From a bacterium HR28 (GTDB lineage Bacteria; Chloroflexota; Chloroflexia; Thermomicrobiales; Thermomicrobiaceae): a stretch of 64,000 bases of DNA. Numbering within the stretch: position 1 is the first letter of the stretch; each line of letters begins with the position of its first letter. Below are positions 5,557-48,354 of this stretch, piece by piece. Location of the stretch: the NCBI GenBank assembly GCA_002898255.1, contig BEIE01000003.1:186001-250000 (forward strand), read 5' to 3'. The notes under the pieces were generated by a model. The model searched no databases. It was given only the letters and a program-made list of their open reading frames with translations, and was not told where the DNA came from. A program made the translations under genes and the position numbers.

Positions 5557-5703
5557 CGGGGTCCTCCTGCCGCGCGTCGCCGATGTGGGCATCGGCATCG
5601 CCAGGAGCAGAGGCTCCGCGTGCAGGACCGGCAGGCGTCACGGTTCGGTTGGTGAAGTGAAGGAGAGGTGAGATCAGACGGGGTGATACTTGCGCTCATC
5701 ACT

Positions 5704-5805
5704 ACGGCCTTCCCTCCGCTGGCATTACCCAGGTCAGGTTCCACGGTCGGTGGCAGACGTTTCGGCCACCCTCTCAGCCCGGCTTCCCCGAGCTCCCGCG
5801 GCCGT
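5704..5805 (-). promoter_or_regulatory. TPP riboswitch (THI element)
   Basis: On the minus strand the P1 stem ACGGCC/GGCCGT closes the element. Inside it are the hallmark GGGCTGAGAGGGTGGCC (CUGAGA core) and ACCTGACCTGGGTAATGCCA followed by GCGGAGGGA, the invariant pyrophosphate-sensing half. It lies in the 5' leader of the importer operon, so thiamine pyrophosphate is expected to lower expression. No separate terminator hairpin with a T-run is evident between it and the ATPase start, so control may be translational; that part is inference. Confidence 0.96.
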
Positions 5806-5825
5806 CTCCTCTTTTCTGTGACGGG

Positions 5826-6155: not shown

Positions 6156-7469
6156 ATGCGGCGACTCCGTCTGTTACTCGTGATGCTCCTTGTCGTTGCA
6201 GTGCAAGGTATCGTGCCGGTTCAGGCGCAGCAGGAAGAGTTTGGGCATTATGAGTTCCGGAAGACGTGGGAACGGACCGATCTGCCGGTGCAGGCCGGAA
6301 GAGCGGCGCGGACCTGGATGTGGGGGCCAGGGCCGTTCACTCCGGCGCTCTGGGAGCGCTATGTGGAGGCCGAAGGTGGAGCACGCTCCGTCCAGTACTT
6401 TGACAAGACGCGGATGGAGCTGAACGAGCGTGAGCCGTACGACTCGCCATGGCGCGTCACCAATGGGCTTCTCGCCAAAGAGCTGGTCACCGGCCGGCGG
6501 CAATACGGTGATAACACGTTCCAGGACTACGGCCCTGCCCAGATTCCGGTCGCCGGCGACCCAGACGATCCAAATGCGCCGACCTATGCAAGCTTCAGTG
6601 CCCTCCTGAACGCTCCACCAGTTCCAACTGGACAGGTCATCACGGCCACCATCGACCGGAACGGCTCGGTTGGGCAGGATCCCGAGCTGGCGCGATATGG
6701 AGTGACCGCTGCAGTTCTGGTGCCAGAGACACAGCACACCGTCGCCTCACCGTTTTGGGCGTTCATGAACAGCCAGGGGCTCATTGCTGAGTCCGGTTTC
6801 TTCCGGGAGGGGCCGCTGTTTCCCAATCCCTTCTACGCAACTGGCTTCCCGATCACAGAAGCCTATTGGACGACGGTCCGCGTGGGTGGTCAGCCGAAGC
6901 GGGTCCTGGTCCAGGTGTTCGAGCGGCGGGTACTGACCTACACGCCGGACAATCCGCCTGGCTGGCAGGTAGAGGCGGGGAATGTGGGGCAGCACTACTA
7001 TCGCTGGCGCTACGAACTTGCGCCCGATCGGGGGAGCCGCAATAACCCAATCCCGCTTGGCGAGACAGCGGTGCTCTATGGGAATTGGGAGGTCCGCGTC
7101 GTCGGGGTCATCCCCAACGCGACCGAACTCGTTCTGCGCGAGAACATGTTCAACGATCCGCCGGCCCCAGGACACCAGTTCTTCCTTGCGACTGTCGAGG
7201 CCACCTATCGTGGTCAGGGCTCAGCCCGCTTTGACGGAAGCTTCCGGCTGCGCGCCGTCGGGCCAGCCAACGTCTCGTACAGCACCTTCGAGCACAGCTG
7301 TGGGGTGATCCCGGACAGGATTAGCGACCGCGAGGTATTTACCGGCGGAACAATCCGCGGCAACGTCTGTTGGGAGGTACTCTCGTCCGATGCGGCGAAC
7401 CTTCTGATGTACGATTACCCGTTCCTGGCTGAAAGGTATGTGACAACATTCTTCCGCCTGACTCCCTAA
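6156..7469 (+). CDS. Secreted lineage-specific protein with C-terminal DUF4352-like domain
   Basis: 437 aa with a signal peptide (MRRLRLLLVMLLVVAVQGIVPVQA, likely cleavage after AQA). The middle carries a pattern seen in Thermomicrobia exported proteins: a GPF...W...GG...VQYFDKTRME unit and ATGFPITEAYW...QVFERRVLTYTPDNP...HYYRWRYE, related to the LGFP-like repeats of the gene at 37083. Residues about 290-437 (IPLGETAVLYGNWEVRVVG onward) resemble an Ig-like DUF4352 domain. ATG 6156 has GAGGAGG 7 nt upstream. It stands alone, divergent from the thi operon. No catalytic motif was recognised; a surface-binding role is only a guess. Confidence 0.8.
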   Translation: MRRLRLLLVMLLVVAVQGIVPVQAQQEEFGHYEFRKTWERTDLPVQAGRAARTWMWGPGPFTPALWERYVEAEGGARSVQYFDKTRMELNEREPYDSPWRVTNGLLAKELVTGRRQYGDNTFQDYGPAQIPVAGDPDDPNAPTYASFSALLNAPPVPTGQVITATIDRNGSVGQDPELARYGVTAAVLVPETQHTVASPFWAFMNSQGLIAESGFFREGPLFPNPFYATGFPITEAYWTTVRVGGQPKRVLVQVFERRVLTYTPDNPPGWQVEAGNVGQHYYRWRYELAPDRGSRNNPIPLGETAVLYGNWEVRVVGVIPNATELVLRENMFNDPPAPGHQFFLATVEATYRGQGSARFDGSFRLRAVGPANVSYSTFEHSCGVIPDRISDREVFTGGTIRGNVCWEVLSSDAANLLMYDYPFLAERYVTTFFRLTP

Positions 7470-7560
7470 ATCCTGCATGGGGACGCTCGCCACGTGAGGA
7501 TTCGACTGGGCGCGTGCGGTGTTGGGACGATGAGGGGCTGGATAAGGAGTACACTGGCTT

Positions 7561-7650
7561 GTGCCTCTACTCGGTGGTCTGCGCGTGATCTATGATCTCG
7601 TTACCATGCTGGGTGCCCTCGTCGCGAGCTACATGCTGGCCTCCTACTGA
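7561..7650 (+). CDS. Possible small hydrophobic peptide (29 aa)
   Basis: GTG 7561 opens a short frame ending at TGA 7650 with a hydrophobic product (includes LVTMLGALVASYMLASY). AAGGAG lies about 11 nt upstream, at the loose end of acceptable spacing. It sits 54 nt before the DUF499 gene. Too short to judge by composition; it could be a membrane peptide or chance. Confidence 0.25.
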   Translation: MPLLGGLRVIYDLVTMLGALVASYMLASY

Positions 7651-7703
7651 GTGGTCAGAGTGTGGCAGGAAGAGGTGGTCGACCAAACGGGAGCGCGAGC
7701 GCG

Positions 7704-10700
7704 ATGCGGACGATCTTCGAGACCTGTGTCCCACGGCCGGAAGTGCTCCGCGGGGAGCTCCGTGATGACCTGTTCGCTGCCAGTCTGGCAAGTGTGGTTC
7801 TGGGGACGGCCGAACCGGTCTACGGAGACCCAGAACGCTTCTTCAGCCAGACCTATCCCACCAGACAACTCAGAACGTTCTTGCGCGAGGCACTCGGTCG
7901 CCTGACCGGGAGCGACCCGTCAGCCAATGCGGTACTCCTTCTTGAGACCCCGTTCGGCGGAGGGAAGACGCACGCGCTCATTGCGCTCTACCATGCTGCG
8001 CGCGGTGAACCGGCGGCAGCAACAATCGTTGGTGACGTGCCGCTGCCGTTACCCGGTACGGTCGGCGTGGCGGCGGTGGTTGGTACGGATCTCGATCCGA
8101 CACATGGTGTACGGCACCATGATGTGACCACCTATACCTTGTGGGGAGAACTTGCCTACCAGCTTGGGGGCCGAACCGCATATCTCCTCGTGGAGGAGTC
8201 TGACCATCGCACCAAGACAGCGCCTGGCCGCGTGACACTCGAGCAGCTGGTCGGCGAGCGGCCAGTCTTGATCTTGCTGGATGAGCTGGCGCGCTATCTC
8301 GTCGTGGCCGAGGCAGTCCCGTCCCCGACAGGGAAGGGGACGCTGGCCGACCAGACGATCGCGTTCCTGCACGCACTGCTGGAGTTTGCTGCAGCACGGC
8401 GGAATGTCTTGGTCGTACTCACGATGGCGTCCTCGACGGATGCCTTTGCTGAAGGGACTGAACGTCTCCGTGAGGCGCTCTCAGTGATTGCCCGGAGTGC
8501 CCGGTTGCTGACCCCGGCCGAGCCAGAAGAGATCCCGGCCATCGTGGTCCATCGCCTCTTCGAGCGCGTCGACCGTGCTGCGGCCAAGGAGACAGCGCAG
8601 GCCTATCTGGAGGCCCTTCGTCGTTGGGCGGAGCAAAAGGTGGCATTGCCACCAGCAGTGACGATGGCCGAGTATGCCGAGCGAATTGAGCGGAGCTATC
8701 CGTTCCATCCGGAGCTTGTCCATGTCCTGGATACCCGGGTCGGTTCGATCCCGAACTTTCAGCGGACACGTGGAGCCCTGCGGCTCCTGGCGCGCGTGGT
8801 GCGGCGACTATGGAACCGACAACCACCACAGATGTGGCTGATCCATCCAGGTGACGTCGATCTCGGTGATCCTGACATCTTGGAAGACTTGACCAACCGC
8901 CTTGATCGGCCGGCCTTCAAGCAGGTCGCCGAAGCGGATATCGCCTCCCGTGACCCCAAGGCACCGGCCCACGCCGAAGTGATCGATGCGCACCACGGGG
9001 GAATGCGTCCAGCGGGACGGCTGGCAACGACGATCTTCCTGCACTCGCTGGCGCTCACAGGCGTCGTCGGGATCGACCCACCCTCGCTCCTTGCTGCGAC
9101 GCTCCGTCCTGATGACCAACCGGACACGCTTGCCCGCGTGCTCGACGAACTTCGAAGATACTGTTGGTTCTTAGCGACGAGTGATCAGAGTCGACAGGAC
9201 CGTAATGAACAGCAGAGTAAAGAGCATAAACGATACTGGTTTGCCACTGAGCCGCAGCTACAAAAGATCATCGAGGAGGAACGAGCGCGCGTCCCGGTGA
9301 CCCTCGCCAAGGAACTCGTCTGCGAGCGGATTGAGACGATTTTCCAGCGGAGCGTGCTTGTCCCGGTCTTCTTCCCCAGCGATCCGGCCGAGCTGAGTGA
9401 TGATGCCGAACACCCCAAACTGGTGATCCTCCACTTCGATGCGGTGACGACGACGGCAGACGAAGAGACGGTGCCAGCGCTCGTGCGGACGCTCTTTGAG
9501 CGTGCCGGTCAGAACAGCTTCCGCACCTACCGCAACAACGTGGTCTTTCTGGTCGCGGACCGGGGGGCGGTCGAACCGCTAGTGGAGCGGGCACGGACGC
9601 TGCTGGCGATGGAGCGCTTGCTCCAGAGTCAGAATGGTCTCCTGGACGAGGGGAAGCGACAGGAGCTGACACAGCGCAGGGACGAGGAGGCGTTGCAGCT
9701 GCGCGTGGCGATCATGCGTGCCTACCGCTTCCTCTATTACCCACAAGGCGATGCGGCGATCAACAGCCTGCCACTGCAACGCGAGATGCTACCAGTCCGG
9801 GAGCAAGGGACGGTCGCGGGCAATCAGACGACGGTGGTGGAGCAGCGTTTGCGCGACCTGGAGAAGCTCCGACGAGCGGACGAGGGCAAAGGACTTCCTG
9901 CGCCTGCCTTGGTGCGGCAGCGAGCCTTTGGCAATCAAGAGTACCTCTCCACACTCGAGCTGCGGCGTGCCTTTGCTCGGTACACTGGCCTTCCCATCCT
10001 AGCGGACGCAGCAAATGCGCTGCGCGAGATCGTCCGACTGGGGATCCGGGCAAAGGTCTGGGTCTACTACGATGCGGCCGCGCGCGAAGCCTATGATGCT
10101 GATTCGGGCCGAGAACCGAGCATACGGATAGCTGAGGATACGTTCGTCTACGTGCCGGAGGCGGCGGCACGGGCAGGGCTTCCCTTCGTGCGCCCCGTGG
10201 CGCCTTCACCACCACCGCTCCCTGCGCGTTGCCCGGTCTGTGGTGAACCGATAGCGCAGTGCCGCTGCAGCCAAGAGATTGTGCCGCCACGCCCGGAGCG
10301 AACTGAGGAACTGATCAGTCTCGACGGTACTCTTGGCCAGGTGTCCAAGGGGCTTCTCGATGTCGTGCGGGACAAGCAGCTTGAGCGACTGCGGGACGTG
10401 ACGCTGCGACTCGAGACCGCAGAGGCGAGCGAAGTGCGGGCGTTTGGGCTCTGGGTCGCTCAGCTCCGTTCCTTGGGACAACTGCAGCCGGAGCTCGAAG
10501 CGTCGTTGACAGCCACACTCGCGCAGGGTGGTGACCTTCGCCTCACCTTCACCGGCCCGCCTGAGCAGTATGTGCGCTATCGGAGCCTCTTTGAGACGCC
10601 GCTGCGCGATGCCCGCGACCTGGATGCTCGCTTCCTCCTTCGCGTCACGAATCTGGTGGCGAAGGATGTGCAGCAGCTGGTGCTGCTTGGGGAAGACGAA

Positions 10701-10760
10701 CTCGCCGCCGAGTTGGGGAAAGTGCGGCTGACAGCGCAAGGGTATCGGGAGCACGCGTGA
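7704..10760 (+). CDS. DUF499-type AAA ATPase (defence-associated)
   Basis: Large P-loop ATPase, 1018 aa. The N-terminus MRTIFETCVPRPEVL is typical of DUF499 proteins, which is why ATG 7704 is preferred over GTG 7662. Walker A is ETPFGGGKTHAL (about residues 80-92) and Walker B LILLDELARYL (about 188-198). Near residues 840-860 CPVCGEPIAQCRC is a likely zinc knuckle. Family members occur beside DUF1156 methylases and helicases in defence islands; this is established as genomic association, not as a known mechanism. Its stop overlaps the next start (TGATG), so the small downstream protein is probably translationally coupled. Confidence 0.88.
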   Translation: MRTIFETCVPRPEVLRGELRDDLFAASLASVVLGTAEPVYGDPERFFSQTYPTRQLRTFLREALGRLTGSDPSANAVLLLETPFGGGKTHALIALYHAARGEPAAATIVGDVPLPLPGTVGVAAVVGTDLDPTHGVRHHDVTTYTLWGELAYQLGGRTAYLLVEESDHRTKTAPGRVTLEQLVGERPVLILLDELARYLVVAEAVPSPTGKGTLADQTIAFLHALLEFAAARRNVLVVLTMASSTDAFAEGTERLREALSVIARSARLLTPAEPEEIPAIVVHRLFERVDRAAAKETAQAYLEALRRWAEQKVALPPAVTMAEYAERIERSYPFHPELVHVLDTRVGSIPNFQRTRGALRLLARVVRRLWNRQPPQMWLIHPGDVDLGDPDILEDLTNRLDRPAFKQVAEADIASRDPKAPAHAEVIDAHHGGMRPAGRLATTIFLHSLALTGVVGIDPPSLLAATLRPDDQPDTLARVLDELRRYCWFLATSDQSRQDRNEQQSKEHKRYWFATEPQLQKIIEEERARVPVTLAKELVCERIETIFQRSVLVPVFFPSDPAELSDDAEHPKLVILHFDAVTTTADEETVPALVRTLFERAGQNSFRTYRNNVVFLVADRGAVEPLVERARTLLAMERLLQSQNGLLDEGKRQELTQRRDEEALQLRVAIMRAYRFLYYPQGDAAINSLPLQREMLPVREQGTVAGNQTTVVEQRLRDLEKLRRADEGKGLPAPALVRQRAFGNQEYLSTLELRRAFARYTGLPILADAANALREIVRLGIRAKVWVYYDAAAREAYDADSGREPSIRIAEDTFVYVPEAAARAGLPFVRPVAPSPPPLPARCPVCGEPIAQCRCSQEIVPPRPERTEELISLDGTLGQVSKGLLDVVRDKQLERLRDVTLRLETAEASEVRAFGLWVAQLRSLGQLQPELEASLTATLAQGGDLRLTFTGPPEQYVRYRSLFETPLRDARDLDARFLLRVTNLVAKDVQQLVLLGEDELAAELGKVRLTAQGYREHA

Positions 10761-11203
10761 TGATGGGAAATGGCACCGGACGTTGGTTCGAGCTCGCACT
10801 GCGACAGCGCCGCACCGGGCGCGAGCTGGTCTTGTGGCAGTGGGAGCGGCGGGTCGAGAACGGGCGCGTCGTCGGGCGACCGAAGCGCCAGCGGGTGGGT
10901 GTGCTGGCGGGACGGCCGCTGGCGGTTGCCGAGAACGACCTACAGCACTTGCTCGGTCGGGCAGGGGTGCAGGAACTGGAGCGCAGTGGGCGCCTGGAGC
11001 TGACGGAGCCACTCGGGGCGCGGTTGGGCGTACTGTTCCTGGCACTCCGTCCACTGCGTCGAGTGGAGCGGATGGTGCGGCTGGTCGAGGGAATACGTCA
11101 GTTAGCGGACGAAGAGGCTTACTACTGGTACGCCCAGTGCACCGCGCCGGGACGTGCTGCCAAAGGACGACGTGCCTTGCGAATCCTCCTGGCGGGCGAG
11201 TGA
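10760..11203 (+). CDS. Small conserved-looking protein of the DUF499/DUF1156 island
   Basis: 147 aa, Arg/Leu-rich, basic and probably helical. No family recognised. GTG 10757, ATG 10760 and ATG 10763 are all possible; ATG 10760 makes a TGATG overlap with the ATPase stop. The frame is well conserved in style (LELTEPLGARLGVLFLALRP, DEEAYYWYAQCTAPGRAAKGRRALRILL). Position inside the island suggests an accessory or structural subunit working with the ATPase. That is inferred from coupling only. Confidence 0.65.
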   Translation: MMGNGTGRWFELALRQRRTGRELVLWQWERRVENGRVVGRPKRQRVGVLAGRPLAVAENDLQHLLGRAGVQELERSGRLELTEPLGARLGVLFLALRPLRRVERMVRLVEGIRQLADEEAYYWYAQCTAPGRAAKGRRALRILLAGE

Positions 11204-11523
11204 CGTCGCCCGGTGAGGGACAGCGGTACCACGCGAAAGGATTGACCGGAGAGCCCGGGAGCGAGCGCTGCGCTGCACGCGATCCGCTGCATGCCAGAGG
11301 CTCCGCGGTGTGCGGGCCTGTGCCTTTTGCCGCTGATTCAGGGGTCCATTGACCGGCCTACCCTGGACGGGTAGATTGGTGCGTGGTCCGGCCATCCGGG
11401 TTTGCGCGGACGAAGGATCCAAGCTCTGACGTTTCCTACGAGCTGCCGCAGTAGCTGCCGGCGTCGTCGCTGCTGGAGCCTCGGAGCACGTTGGAAGTTT
11501 GCGGGGAGAGGGGTGCGGTCCTG
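11204..11523. other. Intergenic gap between small protein and methyltransferase genes
   Basis: 320 nt on the coding side of the island. The overlapping frames (10783-11352 and others) are shadows of the upstream gene. GGGAGAGGGG at about 11503-11513 probably serves as the ribosome binding site of the methyltransferase. No promoter could be read with confidence. Confidence 0.4.
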
Positions 11524-14463
11524 ATGACACAGACGATGTTGCGCACGACACTCCTCATCGAGGAGTGGCTGCCGATCCAGGAGTTGGGGATTGAGGCGCA
11601 ACGGGAACGCGGGGCGAGTAGCTCCTTGCCGCCGCTCTACTTCCTCCACGTCTGGTGGGCGCGGCGACCGCTGGTGGTCAGCCGTGCAGCGGTGTTGGCC
11701 AGCCTACTGCCGGCTTGGCGGCCCGACTGGCCGGAGGCGCTGCGGCAGCGCTTCCCCACTCGCGAGGCCTACCACGCCTGGTTCCGCTGGCTGCTAGGGA
11801 TCCGGGGAGACATCACCGATGCCTGGAGCGCGATCCAGCGGGCAAGGGCAGCTGGGGAGCGTATCGAGAACCCATTCACACATGGAAGGGCGTTCACACT
11901 AGGTATTTCTGAAGGAGACGCGGAAGATCTTCTGGATATTCTTCGCATAACGTGGCAGAGCGTGGACATCAGTGTCTTAGATCCGACTGCTGGAGGTGGG
12001 TCTATTCCGCTTGAGGCGCTACGGTTAGGCTTGACTGTGCATGCCAACGAGTTGAATGCGGTGGCCAGCGTCATCCTTGCAGCAACGCTCGACTATCCGG
12101 CACGGTTCGGTGAGGAATTCTCCCGTGATCTGGAGCGATACGGACGAGAACTCAGTAATCGTGTCCGCAGCGCGATCAGGCGCTTTTATCCTAATTCCAC
12201 TCCGAGCGAAGAGCCACTCACCTACCTCTGGGCGCGGACGGTCCCATGTCCGCAGACCGGCAAGCCGATCCCTCTCTCCCCCAATTGGTGGCTCCAGCGC
12301 GACGACCGTGCCCGCGTCGCCGTTCGCCTCCTCTGTCAGCCCAACTGGCCGGAGTGCCGTTTCGAGATCGTGCGTGGCGCGGAGGCAGAGCGCGTCGCTG
12401 AGCAGGGGACGATCCGCCGCGGCGTCGCCGTCTCCCCATGGACGGGTCAAGTGGTCGACGGCGACTACATCAAGCGTGAGGCTCAGGCGGGTCGCATGGG
12501 TCAGCAGCTCTATGCTGTCGTCGTCAAGACACCGCAGGGGATCGACTTTCGTCCGCCGACCGAAGCCGATCTTGCTGCCGTTCAGGCGGCGGAGGCCGAG
12601 CTGGCGCGCCGCCTCCCCGGCTGGCTCGCCCGCGACCTGGTGCCCGATGAGGAGATTCCGGAGGTCAGCAATTACAACCGCGGTCACCGCCTGTACGGCA
12701 TGACTCACTGGCGCGACCTCTTTGCTCCCCGCCAGCTTCTGGCGCTCGGCACGACCGTCGAGGCCCTGCGCGCCCTCGAGCCGGAGATCCGCGCTCAGCT
12801 CCCGCCGGGCCGCGCCCGGGCCGTCCTGACCTATCTGGCGCTGGCAGTGGATAAGTTGGCGGACTACAACTCGCGGATGAGCCGCCTCGATGTCACACGT
12901 GTGGTTGTGAAGAACACCTTTGACCGCCACGACTTCAGCATGAAGTGGAGCCATGCCGAGATGGCGGTGGTGGCGGCGGGCAAGGGGCTCGACTGGGCCA
13001 TCGACCAGGTGGTCGACGCCTACCGTGGCATCGCCCGACTGGCCCAACCAGCCCGGCTCCCGCTCTGGCAGCGCAGCGGCGCCTCGCCAGTCGAGCGGCT
13101 GCGTGTGACCCAGGGCGATGCCCGTGACCTCCGGCATCTCCCGGACGGCTCGGTCCACCTGGTCTGCATCGACCCGCCCTACTATGACAACGTCCAGTAC
13201 GCGGAGCTTTCCGACTTTTTCTACGTGTGGCTCAAGCGCACGGTGGGGCATCTTTACCCGGACTGGTTCGCTGCGCCGCTGACCGATAAGGAGGACGAGG
13301 CGGTGGCCAACCCGGCGCGGTTCGCCGCACTGGGACGGCGCGGCCGGGCACAGGAACTGGCACGGCGAGACTACGAGCGCAAGATGACAGCGATCTTCCG
13401 GGAGTGTGCCCGCGTCCTGCGCTCGGACGGCGTCCTCACCGTGATGTTCACCCACAAGCAGGTCGATGCCTGGGACGCCCTGGCGCAGGCGCTGATCGAT
13501 GCGGGCTTCCAGGTCACTGCGTCCTGGCCAGTCCACACCGAGTCCGAACACAGCCTGCACCAGGCCAGGAGGAACGCGGCACGTTCGACGATCCTGCTGA
13601 GTTGCCGCAAGCGCCCACCGGGCGATGGGGCGGTCTGGTGGGACGATATCAAGGCGGAACTGCGGCAGCGGGTGCGGACCCGAGCGCAGGAGTTGGCAGC
13701 GTGGGGACTGCACGGGATCGACCTGGTGCTGGCGACCTATGGGACAGCACTCAGCGTGATCTCGGCGCGCTGGCCGGTGTTGACGAGCCAAGCCGACGAG
13801 CACGGGCAACCTATCCCTCTCCGGGCGGAGTCGGCGCTCGATGCGGCGCGGGAAGAAGTGCTCGGGCTCGTGCGCGAGCGGCTCCTGCACGGGCAGCGGG
13901 TGCAGTTTGATCCGGTGAGCGACTGGTACCTCATGACCTGGGAAATGCTCAAAGCACGGGAGTTCCCGTTCGACGAGGCGCGCAAGCTGGCGCTGGCCAC
14001 CGGCGTGGAGCTGGAGCGCGAGATTCTCACCGGCGCGCGGCTGGTTCAGAGGGCTGGTGACGCAGTGAAGCTCCTCACCCCCAAGGAGCGCTGGCAGCGC
14101 AAGGCGGTGACGGTCGATGGGGTACCGACACGTCTCGTGGACGGGCTGCACGTGGCGCTGGTCATTGCGGAGGAGGACGGTGTCGGAGCCGCAGAGCGGT
14201 ACCTGGAATGGGTCGGACTCCGGCAGCAGAACGACTTCCGGGCCTATGTCGCCGCGCTCCTGGAGGCGATCCCGCGGCTACGCGGGACTGACGGGCGCTT
14301 GCAGCTCCCAGAAGCGGAGTGGCTGGAGGTGTTGCGCGCCTACTGCTACCCGGACATCACACCGCCACCAGAGCCGGAACGGAAGCACGTCTATGACCAA
14401 GCACGTCTGGCGCTGGGCGAGGACGGAGCGGACGCGGGGGACGATGACGTCAGTGAGGAGTAG
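11524..14463 (+). CDS. DUF1156-type adenine-specific DNA methyltransferase
   Basis: 979 aa from ATG 11524; the track's start at 11491 is a TTG without ribosome binding site. The N-terminal DUF1156 signature reads YFLHVWWARRPLVVSRAAV (about residues 38-57). SAM-binding motif I is DPTAGGGSIPLEALRLG (about 153-170), and catalytic motif IV CIDPPYYDNVQYAELSDFF (about 548) has the DPPY signature of N6-adenine methylases. A long insert (about 200-480) separates the motifs. The C-terminal third is unassigned. Probable role is modification or recognition in an ATPase-methylase-helicase system. The 708-aa minus-strand frame opposite it is a shadow. Confidence 0.92.
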   Translation: MTQTMLRTTLLIEEWLPIQELGIEAQRERGASSSLPPLYFLHVWWARRPLVVSRAAVLASLLPAWRPDWPEALRQRFPTREAYHAWFRWLLGIRGDITDAWSAIQRARAAGERIENPFTHGRAFTLGISEGDAEDLLDILRITWQSVDISVLDPTAGGGSIPLEALRLGLTVHANELNAVASVILAATLDYPARFGEEFSRDLERYGRELSNRVRSAIRRFYPNSTPSEEPLTYLWARTVPCPQTGKPIPLSPNWWLQRDDRARVAVRLLCQPNWPECRFEIVRGAEAERVAEQGTIRRGVAVSPWTGQVVDGDYIKREAQAGRMGQQLYAVVVKTPQGIDFRPPTEADLAAVQAAEAELARRLPGWLARDLVPDEEIPEVSNYNRGHRLYGMTHWRDLFAPRQLLALGTTVEALRALEPEIRAQLPPGRARAVLTYLALAVDKLADYNSRMSRLDVTRVVVKNTFDRHDFSMKWSHAEMAVVAAGKGLDWAIDQVVDAYRGIARLAQPARLPLWQRSGASPVERLRVTQGDARDLRHLPDGSVHLVCIDPPYYDNVQYAELSDFFYVWLKRTVGHLYPDWFAAPLTDKEDEAVANPARFAALGRRGRAQELARRDYERKMTAIFRECARVLRSDGVLTVMFTHKQVDAWDALAQALIDAGFQVTASWPVHTESEHSLHQARRNAARSTILLSCRKRPPGDGAVWWDDIKAELRQRVRTRAQELAAWGLHGIDLVLATYGTALSVISARWPVLTSQADEHGQPIPLRAESALDAAREEVLGLVRERLLHGQRVQFDPVSDWYLMTWEMLKAREFPFDEARKLALATGVELEREILTGARLVQRAGDAVKLLTPKERWQRKAVTVDGVPTRLVDGLHVALVIAEEDGVGAAERYLEWVGLRQQNDFRAYVAALLEAIPRLRGTDGRLQLPEAEWLEVLRAYCYPDITPPPEPERKHVYDQARLALGEDGADAGDDDVSEE

Positions 14464-15201
14464 TCAGTGGGCCGAGCTGGTACGGTCGGTGCAGTGCGGC
14501 CTTCCATGACGCGCTCCTACCGAAGCCGGAGCAGCGGCTGGTGATGCTGTGCTCGGAGTCGGGTGGCGTCATTGCCTCCGGCGGCGTGACGACGTCCGCT
14601 GCGGCGGACGCGGTTCTGGTACGGATCGGAGGCCCTTCAGGGGCTGCCGTGAGGAGGGAAGTGTGGCCCGTCGTCGGTGCCAGCAGGACAGGCAGCCGTG
14701 TCCTGCTGGCACGAGGCGCTGGGGATACGGCTGGTCGTGACGCCCGAGGGCTCTGGAGCGGCCCAGCGCGTTGCAGGTGGACGGCCGACTTTTACGACGG
14801 CGCGCGCTGCACCGCAGGGGCGCGCTCATCGTGTGCACGGTGGGGGGCGCGGGATAAGAGGGGAGGCGGTCACCCGCGGCGCCAAGGGATAGCGCGCCGA
14901 CGCGGCAAACGCTGCTGCAAGACAGCTTGGTGTGGTGTACACGGTGCGCCAGGGCAGCGCGGCCGATCTCCTGAAGCGATACCGCGACGCTTCCAACGCC
15001 AAGGGAGGCTGTTTAGGGGTGTTCCCTGACTCGTTGGAAGCGTGGGGTAGGAGGCGTACTGGCAAGGGTCGTGACCGATTTGCCGGGGAAGGGTGGTCCA
15101 GCACGTTCCGTCCGCCCAGGGTTCGGTGGTGCCGAGGTGTCCGTTCGAGGGCGGACCGGTGCCGATTGACTATACTTCTGTTCTGTCGGTGAGGGTGAGG
15201 C
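14464..15201. other. 0.74-kb non-coding gap inside the defence island, structured
   Basis: No frame here resembles a protein; the 162-aa and 86-aa frames are Arg/Gly-rich and lack similarity in style to neighbours. Hairpin CGTCCGC-TGCG-GCGGACG lies at 14593-14610. A perfect 12-bp inverted repeat ACGCTTCCAACG/CGTTGGAAGCGT lies at 14987-14998 and 15032-15043. TATACT at 15171-15176 is 26 nt before the helicase ATG and may be a -10 box, though no good -35 is present. The gap could hold an RNA, a degraded gene or a promoter region. Confidence 0.5.
14987..15043. repeat. Perfect 12-bp inverted repeat with inner stem
   Basis: ACGCTTCCAACG (14987-14998) and CGTTGGAAGCGT (15032-15043) are exact reverse complements around a 33-nt loop. 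Inside the loop AGGGA and TCCCT can add a short inner stem. No T-run follows. Confidence 0.7.
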
Positions 15202-18200
15202 ATGCCAGGCGAGTACGCTGGCGACGCTCCAGGCTTGCGCGGTTATCTTTTCGCCCATCGCTACGGTGAGGGGGACGATCGGCTCCACCGCTTCTACTTG
15301 CCGGCGCTCGAACGGAGTGTGCGGTACGACCGTGCGACCGGATTCTTTTCCAGTTCGGCGCTCGCGGTGGCGGCGGCTGGGGTGGCGCGTCTGATCGCGA
15401 ATGGTGGTCGCATGCGCCTCCTGGTTGGGGCAGCGCTCAGTCCGGAGGATGTGCAGGCGATTGTCCACGGGGCCGACCTTCGCGCGGTGGTACAGGAGCG
15501 GCTGCTGCAGGGGCTAGTGACGGTCGAGACGCTCCTGGAGCGGGAGCGACTGGCGGCCCTGGCGTGGCTGGTGGCTGAGGGGCGACTCGAGCTCCGGGTG
15601 GTGCTTCCGCTTGGGTGGGATGGGCAACCGCTGGCAGCGGCGGAGGCAGCACCGTACTTCCACGCGAAATACGGCGTGTTCACTGATGCGGCCGGCGACC
15701 GGGTTGCGTTTGTAGGGAGCGTGAACGAGACGGCCGCGGGCTGGGTGCAGAACTACGAGGAGCTTTCGGTCTACTTTTCGTGGGACGAGTCTCGTCGGTA
15801 CCTTGAGGACATTGCCGCGCGGTTCGAGCGACTCTGGCAGGGGGAAGAGCATCGCTGGCGGACGTTGACCTTGCCGGAGGCCGTGCAGCAGAAACTCCTG
15901 CAGTACCGACCCGACGAGCCACCGCTCTACGATCCGCTGGAGCGGGTGCAGGTTCCGGTCTCGGAAGTGTGCGAGGAGACTGGAGACTATCAGACCGGAC
16001 CGGACGTGAGCGGGGCGATCGCGCGCTTCTTGCTTGATGTACCGCGGCTGGTCGGTGCCCGTTGGGTCGGACTGGCCACAGCGCCGGTCGTGCCGTGGCC
16101 GCATCAGCGGCGGGTTGTGGAGCGACTGGTCGAGCACTTTCCTGAACGGTTCCTCTTAGCCGACGAAGTGGGATTGGGGAAGACGATTGAGGCCGCACTG
16201 GCGTTGCGCGAACTCTTGCTCAGCGGGCGGGTGCAGCGAGTCTTGTTGCTCGTGCCAGGGGGACTGGTGCGGCAATGGCAGGAGGAGCTCCTGGACAAAG
16301 CTGCACTGGCCGTGCCGCGCTTTGATGCAGGGAAGCTCTGGGACGCGCAGGGTGGCAGTTCCCCAATTGGAGCCAAGGAGCTGCTTGAGACGCAACCGGT
16401 GCTTCTCCTCTCGAGCCACCTTGCGAAGCGGCGTGAATGGGCCGAGCAGCTTCTCCAGGCGCAGCCCTGGGACCTGGTGATTGTCGACGAGGCGCACCAT
16501 GCACGCCGCGACGCTGAGGGGCGGCCCAACCGTTTGTTGTCCCTGTTGCGAGCGCTAAGTGAACGGACACGTGGGCTCTGGCTGCTCTCGGCGACGCCGA
16601 TGCAGCTCCACCCAAGCGAACTCTGGGAGCTGCTCTCCCTCCTGGGCCTGCCGGGACAGTGGGGTGCAGGACCAGACGACTTTGTACGCTACTTTGCTCA
16701 GCTGCGTGGTTCGGATGGGGGAGCGCCGGACTGGGATTTCCTGCTCACCTTGGCGCGCGAGGAGCTCGCGGTGCGCGGTGGGCTAGATGGCCAGTTTGTC
16801 GGAAGCACGCGGGAACGGCTGGGGCTGGCCCGTTGGCAGCGGATCGAGCGACTCTTAAGCATGGACTCGGCGAGTGACCCGCGGTCGCTAGACCGGGATT
16901 CCCAGGCGGCACTTTATGCTGCGTTACGCCAGCACACACCAGTACGCCGACTGATGCTGCGCCACACGCGGTCATTACTCCGCAGATACCGGGAGGAGGG
17001 GCTGCTGAACGAACCGCTTGCTGAACGCGATCCTACGGTGGTGTGGGTCACGTTGACAGACCCGGAGCGCGAGCTCTATGACCGGATTGAGGAGTACATC
17101 ACGGAGTTTTACGCACGGTACGAGGCTGAGCGGCCCGGACTCGGCTTCGTGATGACTATCTACCGGCGTCGGCTCACCTCGAGCTTCGCAGCGGTGCGGC
17201 TCAGCCTGGAGCGGCGGTTGGCGTTCCTCGAAAGGCGCAGTGACGATGTCGGTCTGACGGAAGAAGACGTGACCGAGGAAGAGCTTGACCGCGACGTGCA
17301 GGAGCAGGTGGGCGATATCGATCGTTGGGCAACTGAGGACGAGATCCGTTACCTGCGGAGATTCCTCGAGGATCTCCAGCGCCTCCGCCGCGACTCGAAG
17401 CGCGAGCACTTGCTCGTGTTGCTCGAGCGCCTATTCGCCGAATCGGAGACCATTGCGGTCTTCACCGAGTACTACGATACGCTGCTGGATCTCCGTGAGC
17501 ACCTGGTACCGATCTACGGAAGTCAGGTTGCTTGCTATTCCGGTCGTGGGGGCGAGGTCTGGCAGGACGGGAAGTGGCAACCGATCAGTCGGTCGGAGCT
17601 GGCGGCGTTGTTCCGTGAGGGGAGAAGAGTGCGGCTGCTGCTCTGCACCGATGCGGCGAGTGAAGGGCTGAACCTGCAGACCTGCGGCGTCCTGGTGAAC
17701 TACGACCTGCCGTGGAACCCCATGCGGGTTGAGCAGCGGATCGGCCGCTTTGATCGGATCGGCCAGCGATATCCGGTGGTCCGGATCGTGCACCTGCTCT
17801 ATCGAGATACGGTCGAAGCAGAGGTCTACCGTCGCCTGGGAGAGCGGATCGATTGGTTCCGGAACGTGGTCGGTGAACTGCAGCCGATCCTGACACGGGT
17901 CAGCGAAGACATTCGGCGGCTCGCGCTTGCACCGCAGAGCGCGCGCCGTCGCGAGTTGGAGCACCTGCTGGAGGAACTGGAGCGAGAACTCGCGCAACGC
18001 CAGGAGCAGGAGCTCCTGCAGACACTGCTCGAGCCGGATGCGGCAGCGTATGAGGCCACAGGAGGGTTACCGCCGGTCACGCTTTCTGAGCTAGAGGAAA
18101 CGTTGTTCGAAATCCCGGCTATTGCTGGTGTCTTCCGCCGTCACCCACGGATCGAGCGGGTGTACCGCATCAGCGACGAGGCGCGTCACACGACCGTGAC

Positions 18201-18816
18201 ACTTGACCGTCGGACATACGACGAGCGTCGTGAGGAGTTGCAGTTTCTGACCTACGGGACGGAGGTGCTTGGGAAGCTTCTGGAACGTGCTGCTGGCGAA
18301 CTTCCACCGCATCTCCTGCGGCTCGCGGACGAGTCGGGACGGGTCGGGTACTACTGGCTGGACGGTGACCGGGCGGTGCCGATCATGACACTGCGGGAAT
18401 TTCGTGAGGCCGTGACGTCGTCGGGCGTACCGACGGAGACTGCCGTCCGCGCGGCCGAGCAGAACTTTGCTGCGCGCTGCGCGGCCGAGCGTGAGCGTGA
18501 AGCGGCACGCGAGGCGCAGATGCGGTCAGTACGGCGGAGTGCGCTTGAGGCCCAGGCGCGAGCGGTTCTGCGGGAGGCGACGGCGATCGAAGCGGTGCTG
18601 GGGCGCGGTGGGTCGGTCCAGGCGCTGGCCAGCCGAGGGTATCCGTGGGCACCGCTCGTACGTTTGGTTGGGATGGACGCAGAGGATGCGCGCACCGTGC
18701 GCCAGCTGGTACCGTTGCTGCGGCAGCGGTCACGCGAGCAGCTTGACGGGCGACTCGGCTACCTGACTCAGGTTGCCGGGGAGCTCGTGGAACGGCTTGT
18801 CGCCCTGGGCGCCTGA
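15202..18816 (+). CDS. PLD-domain SNF2-family helicase (defence-associated)
   Basis: 1204 aa. The N-terminal third (about 1-230) is a phospholipase-D-like module with YFHAKYGVF and VAFVGSVNET (HxK...GSxN). Helicase motif I is LLADEVGLGKTIEAAL (about 318-333), motif II VIVDEAHHARRD (about 426), motif III region LLSATPM. Motifs V-VI are TDAASEGLNLQ and QRIGRFDRIGQR (about 816-855). The pattern resembles RapA/HepA-like SNF2 enzymes. The C-terminal 300 residues are charged and probably coiled coil. ATG 15202 follows GAGGGTGAGG. A PLD nuclease joined to a translocase would suit DNA cleavage in an antiphage system; nuclease activity is inferred. Confidence 0.92.
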   Translation: MPGEYAGDAPGLRGYLFAHRYGEGDDRLHRFYLPALERSVRYDRATGFFSSSALAVAAAGVARLIANGGRMRLLVGAALSPEDVQAIVHGADLRAVVQERLLQGLVTVETLLERERLAALAWLVAEGRLELRVVLPLGWDGQPLAAAEAAPYFHAKYGVFTDAAGDRVAFVGSVNETAAGWVQNYEELSVYFSWDESRRYLEDIAARFERLWQGEEHRWRTLTLPEAVQQKLLQYRPDEPPLYDPLERVQVPVSEVCEETGDYQTGPDVSGAIARFLLDVPRLVGARWVGLATAPVVPWPHQRRVVERLVEHFPERFLLADEVGLGKTIEAALALRELLLSGRVQRVLLLVPGGLVRQWQEELLDKAALAVPRFDAGKLWDAQGGSSPIGAKELLETQPVLLLSSHLAKRREWAEQLLQAQPWDLVIVDEAHHARRDAEGRPNRLLSLLRALSERTRGLWLLSATPMQLHPSELWELLSLLGLPGQWGAGPDDFVRYFAQLRGSDGGAPDWDFLLTLAREELAVRGGLDGQFVGSTRERLGLARWQRIERLLSMDSASDPRSLDRDSQAALYAALRQHTPVRRLMLRHTRSLLRRYREEGLLNEPLAERDPTVVWVTLTDPERELYDRIEEYITEFYARYEAERPGLGFVMTIYRRRLTSSFAAVRLSLERRLAFLERRSDDVGLTEEDVTEEELDRDVQEQVGDIDRWATEDEIRYLRRFLEDLQRLRRDSKREHLLVLLERLFAESETIAVFTEYYDTLLDLREHLVPIYGSQVACYSGRGGEVWQDGKWQPISRSELAALFREGRRVRLLLCTDAASEGLNLQTCGVLVNYDLPWNPMRVEQRIGRFDRIGQRYPVVRIVHLLYRDTVEAEVYRRLGERIDWFRNVVGELQPILTRVSEDIRRLALAPQSARRRELEHLLEELERELAQRQEQELLQTLLEPDAAAYEATGGLPPVTLSELEETLFEIPAIAGVFRRHPRIERVYRISDEARHTTVTLDRRTYDERREELQFLTYGTEVLGKLLERAAGELPPHLLRLADESGRVGYYWLDGDRAVPIMTLREFREAVTSSGVPTETAVRAAEQNFAARCAAEREREAAREAQMRSVRRSALEAQARAVLREATAIEAVLGRGGSVQALASRGYPWAPLVRLVGMDAEDARTVRQLVPLLRQRSREQLDGRLGYLTQVAGELVERLVALGA

Positions 18817-20170: not shown

Positions 20171-20200
20171 GGGGGCCGACAAGAGAGCTTGTCGGCCCCC
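20171..20200 (-). terminator. Intrinsic-type terminator of the cupredoxin gene
   Basis: A perfect 13-bp stem GGGGGCCGACAAG/CTTGTCGGCCCCC closes an AGAG loop. Read on the minus strand it follows the cupredoxin stop by about 60 nt and is followed by CACGCTTTTC. The T-run is a few bases displaced from the stem. Confidence 0.7.
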
Positions 20201-41960: not shown

Positions 41961-42004
41961 GACAGCTCACGGTCGACCTGAGGAAAGATCGACCGTGAGC
42001 TGTC
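41961..42004. terminator. Bidirectional hairpin between flippase-like gene and pnp
   Basis: Perfect 16-bp stem GACAGCTCACGGTCGA/TCGACCGTGAGCTGTC with a 12-nt loop, starting 5 nt after one stop and ending 12 nt before the other convergent stop. No T-run, but size and placement make a terminator or mRNA-stabilising role likely. Confidence 0.75.
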
Positions 42005-44925: not shown

Positions 44926-44964
44926 GCAAAAAGAGCGCTCCGGGAAAATCCCCGGAGCGCTCTT
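44926..44964 (-). terminator. Rho-independent terminator of ilvBNC
   Basis: A 14-bp perfect stem AAGAGCGCTCCGGG/CCCGGAGCGCTCTT closes a 6-nt loop, beginning 14 nt after the ilvC stop. On the minus strand it runs into TTTTTG, a proper T tract. It also separates the ilv operon from the rpsO promoter. Confidence 0.9.
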
Positions 44965-48322: not shown

Positions 48323-48354
48323 ATCGCGAGCCTCCCGCTGGGGAGGCTCGCGAT
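48323..48354 (-). terminator. Attenuator hairpin (3:4) of the ilvBNC leader
   Basis: Perfect 14-bp stem ATCGCGAGCCTCCC/GGGAGGCTCGCGAT with a 4-nt loop, 33 nt before ilvB. It is followed by ATATCC, not a long T-run, so it may rely on other termination factors. Its first arm on the minus strand contains AGCCTCCC, which can pair instead with GGGAGGCT at 48402-48395 in the end of the leader ORF (antiterminator). Confidence 0.75.

Follow-up and report, generated by a model that had tools for sequence, protein, structure and literature searches.

The DUF499-centred defence operon carried on a 64,000-nt stretch of the genome of the bacterium HR28 (hereafter the window) is interrupted by 738 nt (14464-15201) between the methyltransferase, whose stop codon occupies 14461-14463, and the helicase, which starts with an ATG at 15202, and this raises the question of what such a spacer does, or once was. 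A first-pass annotation had described it as a structured gap without a credible gene in an otherwise compact island, and had proposed that it encodes an RNA component, allows separate regulation of the helicase, or is a decayed gene. That interpretation was partly supported. Comparison with related operons at the sequence level suggests, with a probability of about 0.7, that the gap is the remnant of an old insertion in a DUF499-type BREX-related operon, drifting without detectable selection save in its last ~44 nt. The compactness held true of the methyltransferase-helicase junction across relatives, but not of the window, which has several comparable non-coding-looking stretches. Coordinates are collected in Table 1.

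Table 1. Features of the operon and of the gap, and similar hairpins elsewhere in the window.
Feature	Position	Strand	Basis or remark
DUF499 AAA+ ATPase, HmaC-like	7662-10760	+	Pfam/NCBIfam profiles
DUF7680 protein, between ATPase and methyltransferase	10757-11203	+	profile match
DUF1156 adenine methyltransferase, HmaB-like	11491-14463	+	Pfam/HmaB profiles
Non-coding spacer, methyltransferase stop to helicase start	14464-15201	+	probable derived insertion, approximately neutral drift
7-bp tetraloop hairpin, CGTCCGC TGCG GCGGACG	14593-14610		chance-level
Perfect hairpin, 14-bp arms, 8-nt loop	14677-14712		above chance, not conserved, without T tract
Perfect 12-bp inverted repeat	arms 14987-14998 / 15032-15043		inner AGGGA..TCCCT stem
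Sole constrained-looking part of the gap	15158-15201	+	35/44 identical to G003, no indels
TATACT box	15171-15176	+	25 nt before helicase ATG; lacks a -35 partner; absent from G003
PLD/HKD nuclease-SNF2 helicase fusion	15202-18816	+	Pfam/NCBIfam profiles
Other intergenic hairpins	20171-20200, 41961-42004, 44931-44964, 48323-48354		perfect 13-16 bp arms, short loops, without T tract

Reading frames and codon-position GC were used to assess the coding content of the gap, and both bore out the absence of a credible gene. The flanking genes are strongly periodic (0.72/0.48/0.79 at the three codon positions of the methyltransferase), whereas GC in the gap is flat, at 0.67/0.70/0.68. The longest open frame, of 162 aa (14541-15029), could be envisaged as a fast-evolving small protein gene. 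However, a frame of at least this length arises in 22% of shuffles of the gap, codon periodicity is absent, and the frame is neither preserved in the sister species G003 nor matched by any family or in 158 genomes of the class, so that such a gene appears highly improbable. The two main reading frames of the gap had no relative among the same 158 genomes, and translated searches of these found no recognisable similarity to an intact gene. No Pfam or PADLOC family was matched by the translated frames, nor any NCBIfam or PHROG family by a selection of frames.

The gap could be compared directly with that of G003, whose helicase and methyltransferase are 83% and 81% identical to those of the window species, and which carries 757 nt at the same junction. 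The two gaps are colinear homologues, with a global alignment z relative to shuffles of about 10 over the whole length and of 5-7 after trimming of 60-150 nt from each end. Identity at aligned positions is ~66%, with many indels, which is not above that of optimally aligned shuffles (~65%), the homology signal residing in the score, that is, in fewer gaps. The two species agree at 59%, 60% and 56% of four-fold degenerate sites in the methyltransferase, helicase and ATPase genes, respectively, which places the gap near the neutral level; non-coding stretches 3' of the operon are 71-79% identical, so that nearby intergenic DNA is, if anything, better conserved than the gap. Default blastn aligned both flanks at ~80% identity or better and gave no alignment across 14515-15157, and tblastx returned matches at the ends together with scattered weak ones. 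The constrained-looking segment adjoining the helicase, in which identities were counted by hand on the alignment, contains the helicase ribosome-binding region GGTGAGGGTGAGG. These comparisons draw on two gap sequences, those of the window species and G003, a sample that leaves weak or partial constraint possible; an intermediate relative, G005, was left out, its assembly being interrupted by contig ends both within the N-terminal part of the methyltransferase and where the helicase begins. Within the methyltransferase gene itself, 11804-12220 was not aligned to G003 by default blastn, with both flanks at ~83%, and may represent a variable target-recognition region or an insertion.

The perfect 12-bp inverted repeat with an inner stem, the second, 7-bp tetraloop hairpin and the TATACT box just before the helicase, all listed in the first-pass annotation, are present as described. 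The strongest element of the gap was absent from that list, namely the hairpin GTGCCAGCAGGACA, whose arms are perfectly complementary around an 8-nt loop and which sits 214 nt past a stop codon. An arm of at least 14 bp with a loop of at most 8 nt was found in 0 of 1000 dinucleotide shuffles of the gap and one of at least 12 bp with a loop of at most 60 nt in 5 of 1000, while the tetraloop hairpin was equalled in 81 of 1000 and a box with at least five of the six positions of TATAAT in 15% of shuffles. Thus the 14-bp and 12-bp elements exceed chance, and the tetraloop hairpin and the TATACT box do not. All three hairpins are disrupted in G003, where 6 of 14 pairs of the 14-bp hairpin, 8 of 12 of the 12-bp repeat (which shares its right arm, TGGAAGCGT, but not its left) and 4 of 7 of the tetraloop hairpin can form, and where TATACT aligns to GCTTCT. 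A search of the genome found no second copy of the 14-bp hairpin, and the gap was on this ground rejected as a member of a repeat family.

These elements bear on the suggestion that the gap is a species-specific regulatory region, in which transcription from upstream would be ended or weakened by the 14-bp hairpin and the nuclease-helicase driven separately from a promoter near 15171. The excess of the 14-bp hairpin over shuffles, the position of TATACT and the occurrence of similar T-tract-free perfect hairpins at other intergenic sites, including between convergent genes (e.g. 44931-44964), are in keeping with this. Perfect inverted repeats of 12-16 bp without T tracts in fact occur at five further intergenic sites of the window; the four hairpins entered in the last line of Table 1 resemble that of the gap in their perfect arms, short loop and want of a T tract, but lie between genes, whereas that of the gap lies inside an operon. 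Against such regulation, a scan of the gap for sigma-70-type promoters and intrinsic terminators found neither, TATACT has no -35 partner, boxes of its kind arise in 15% of shuffles, and neither box nor 14-bp hairpin is retained in G003. We consider this regulatory explanation unlikely, although a role as local promoter or partial terminator specific to the window species is possible from the sequence. A related proposal, that the gap is a lineage-specific, fast-evolving RNA or regulatory element whose 14-bp hairpin and local promoter uncouple the nuclease-helicase from the methyltransferase, is very unlikely; if true, it would mean that protection is established before restriction. Some of the hairpins elsewhere in the window stand between convergent genes, and T-tract-free intergenic hairpins may serve this organism as terminators.

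The possibility that the gap encodes a non-coding RNA forming part of the defence system was the first of those raised, and it did not survive comparison. The gap is non-coding, carries hairpins and, in the window species, folds somewhat better than 20 shuffles (z = -2.67), and the structure conservation index reached z 2.5 in one local window of 150 columns (alignment columns 251-400). In contrast, folding of the G003 gap shows no advantage over shuffles (z = +0.51), and the RNAalifold consensus of both gaps gave z = 0.16 against column shuffles, a comparison of low power with two sequences. The raised local value was one of 13 and is unremarkable for that number of tests. Rfam gave no match in the gap at the gathering threshold, the best sub-threshold hit having an E of 2.6; the one homologous gap does not retain the hairpins, no covariation was seen between the two gaps within the limit of two sequences, and in seven related operons the junction is too short to accommodate such an RNA. 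An RNA component here is thus extremely improbable, and the comparison takes a candidate of this kind away from a DUF499-type BREX-related system. Elsewhere in the window, a TPP riboswitch was matched at 5693-5809 on the minus strand, at 56.8 bits, barely over the gathering score.

The remaining proposal, a decayed gene, came closest, in that the evidence is best accounted for by a decayed insert, albeit one without a recognisable gene remnant. In the seven related operons (L006-L012), only 12-17 nt separate the methyltransferase stop from the first conserved (LRxY) helicase codons, and the gap is therefore derived, not ancestral. In other lineages, the same junction carries intact cargo, namely a HigB toxin with an HTH/IrrE-like partner (L026), TumE (L039), an AAA helicase (L047) and GmrSD (L060). 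These loci are alike in having an insertion between methyltransferase and helicase, but their inserts are intact and coding, whereas nothing coding is left in the gap. Because the junction holds cargo in these lineages, the gap is most likely what remains of lost cargo; as no gene remnant is recognisable, we infer from this parallel that what first entered the junction was a cargo gene or cassette. The methyltransferase-helicase junction of DUF499-type operons thus emerges as a site of insert gain and loss.

On the preferred reading of an old, decaying insertion, DNA would have entered the junction in the common ancestor of the window species and G003, and would then have drifted, selection being detectable only in the last ~44 nt, probably the ribosome-binding leader of the helicase. 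The helicase would still be expressed through operon read-through or a weak local promoter, and the present role of the gap would most likely be just that of an untranslated spacer carrying the helicase ribosome-binding site. Against this reading stand the two hairpins that exceed chance, the favourable fold of the window strand and the similar lengths kept in the two species. The gap is nevertheless ordinary, since it looks like an unselected old insertion and not like an RNA gene. Several more specific origins were considered. That the 5' end of the gap preserves the ancestral start of the helicase is not claimed, the best junction match (G007, L011) having a frequency of 0.058 in shuffles; a decayed DUF3780 gene was rejected, since Pfam gave nothing for the translated frames and DUF3780 has no match in the genome either; and a mobile or plasmid origin was likewise rejected, with no DNA match in plasmids and no translated match in plasmids or phages. 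The gap DNA gave matches at chance level only in 400 genomes of the phylum.

A second place of insertion was seen between the DUF7680 and methyltransferase genes. In G003 (L111, reverse-complement 7341-8773) these are separated by ~1.4 kb, containing a 174-aa zinc-ribbon-like frame and a 294-aa frame, as against 288 nt in the window, and in G013 (L114) by Mrr_N and MazE-like genes. DUF7680 had matches in all ten relatives searched, and haloarchaeal loci (among them L043 and L050) show partial similarity to it at the corresponding place, between ATPase and methyltransferase.

The operon appears from its profile matches to be of the DUF499-centred BREX-related (BR) or Hma type, and its HKD-helicase points to Type-2 of PMC12839542. 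The ATPase matched Pfam DUF499 at 141 bits (cut-off 23) and NCBIfam NF042962 at 239 bits, under the cut-off of 1200; the methyltransferase matched Pfam DUF1156 at 59 bits (cut-off 24) and HmaB at 271 bits; and the helicase matched PLDc_2 at 27.2 (cut-off 27), SNF2 at 67.8 (cut-off 24.9) and NCBIfam NF042964 at 397 bits, under the cut-off of 1100. DUF3780 (PF12635) had no match in G000 or G003 and, among ten genomes, was found only in G001, elsewhere. A standalone DUF3780 gene is the mark of Type-2 BR, being present in the locus in 98% of taxa, and accessory toxins and nucleases are recruited into BR loci (PMC12839542); DUF7680 is not mentioned there. Thus the operon shares with Type-2 BR the DUF499 ATPase, the DUF1156 N6-methyltransferase and the HKD(PLD)-helicase, but differs from Type-2 BR/Hma in that DUF3780 is absent from the genome, DUF7680 sits between ATPase and methyltransferase, and the scores fall below the NCBIfam equivalog cut-offs. 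Because of the missing DUF3780 and these scores, we describe it as BR-like and not as a strict Type-2 member. DUF7680 may take the place of DUF3780, and this divergent DUF499 operon, with the one and without the other, is of more interest than the gap that it contains.
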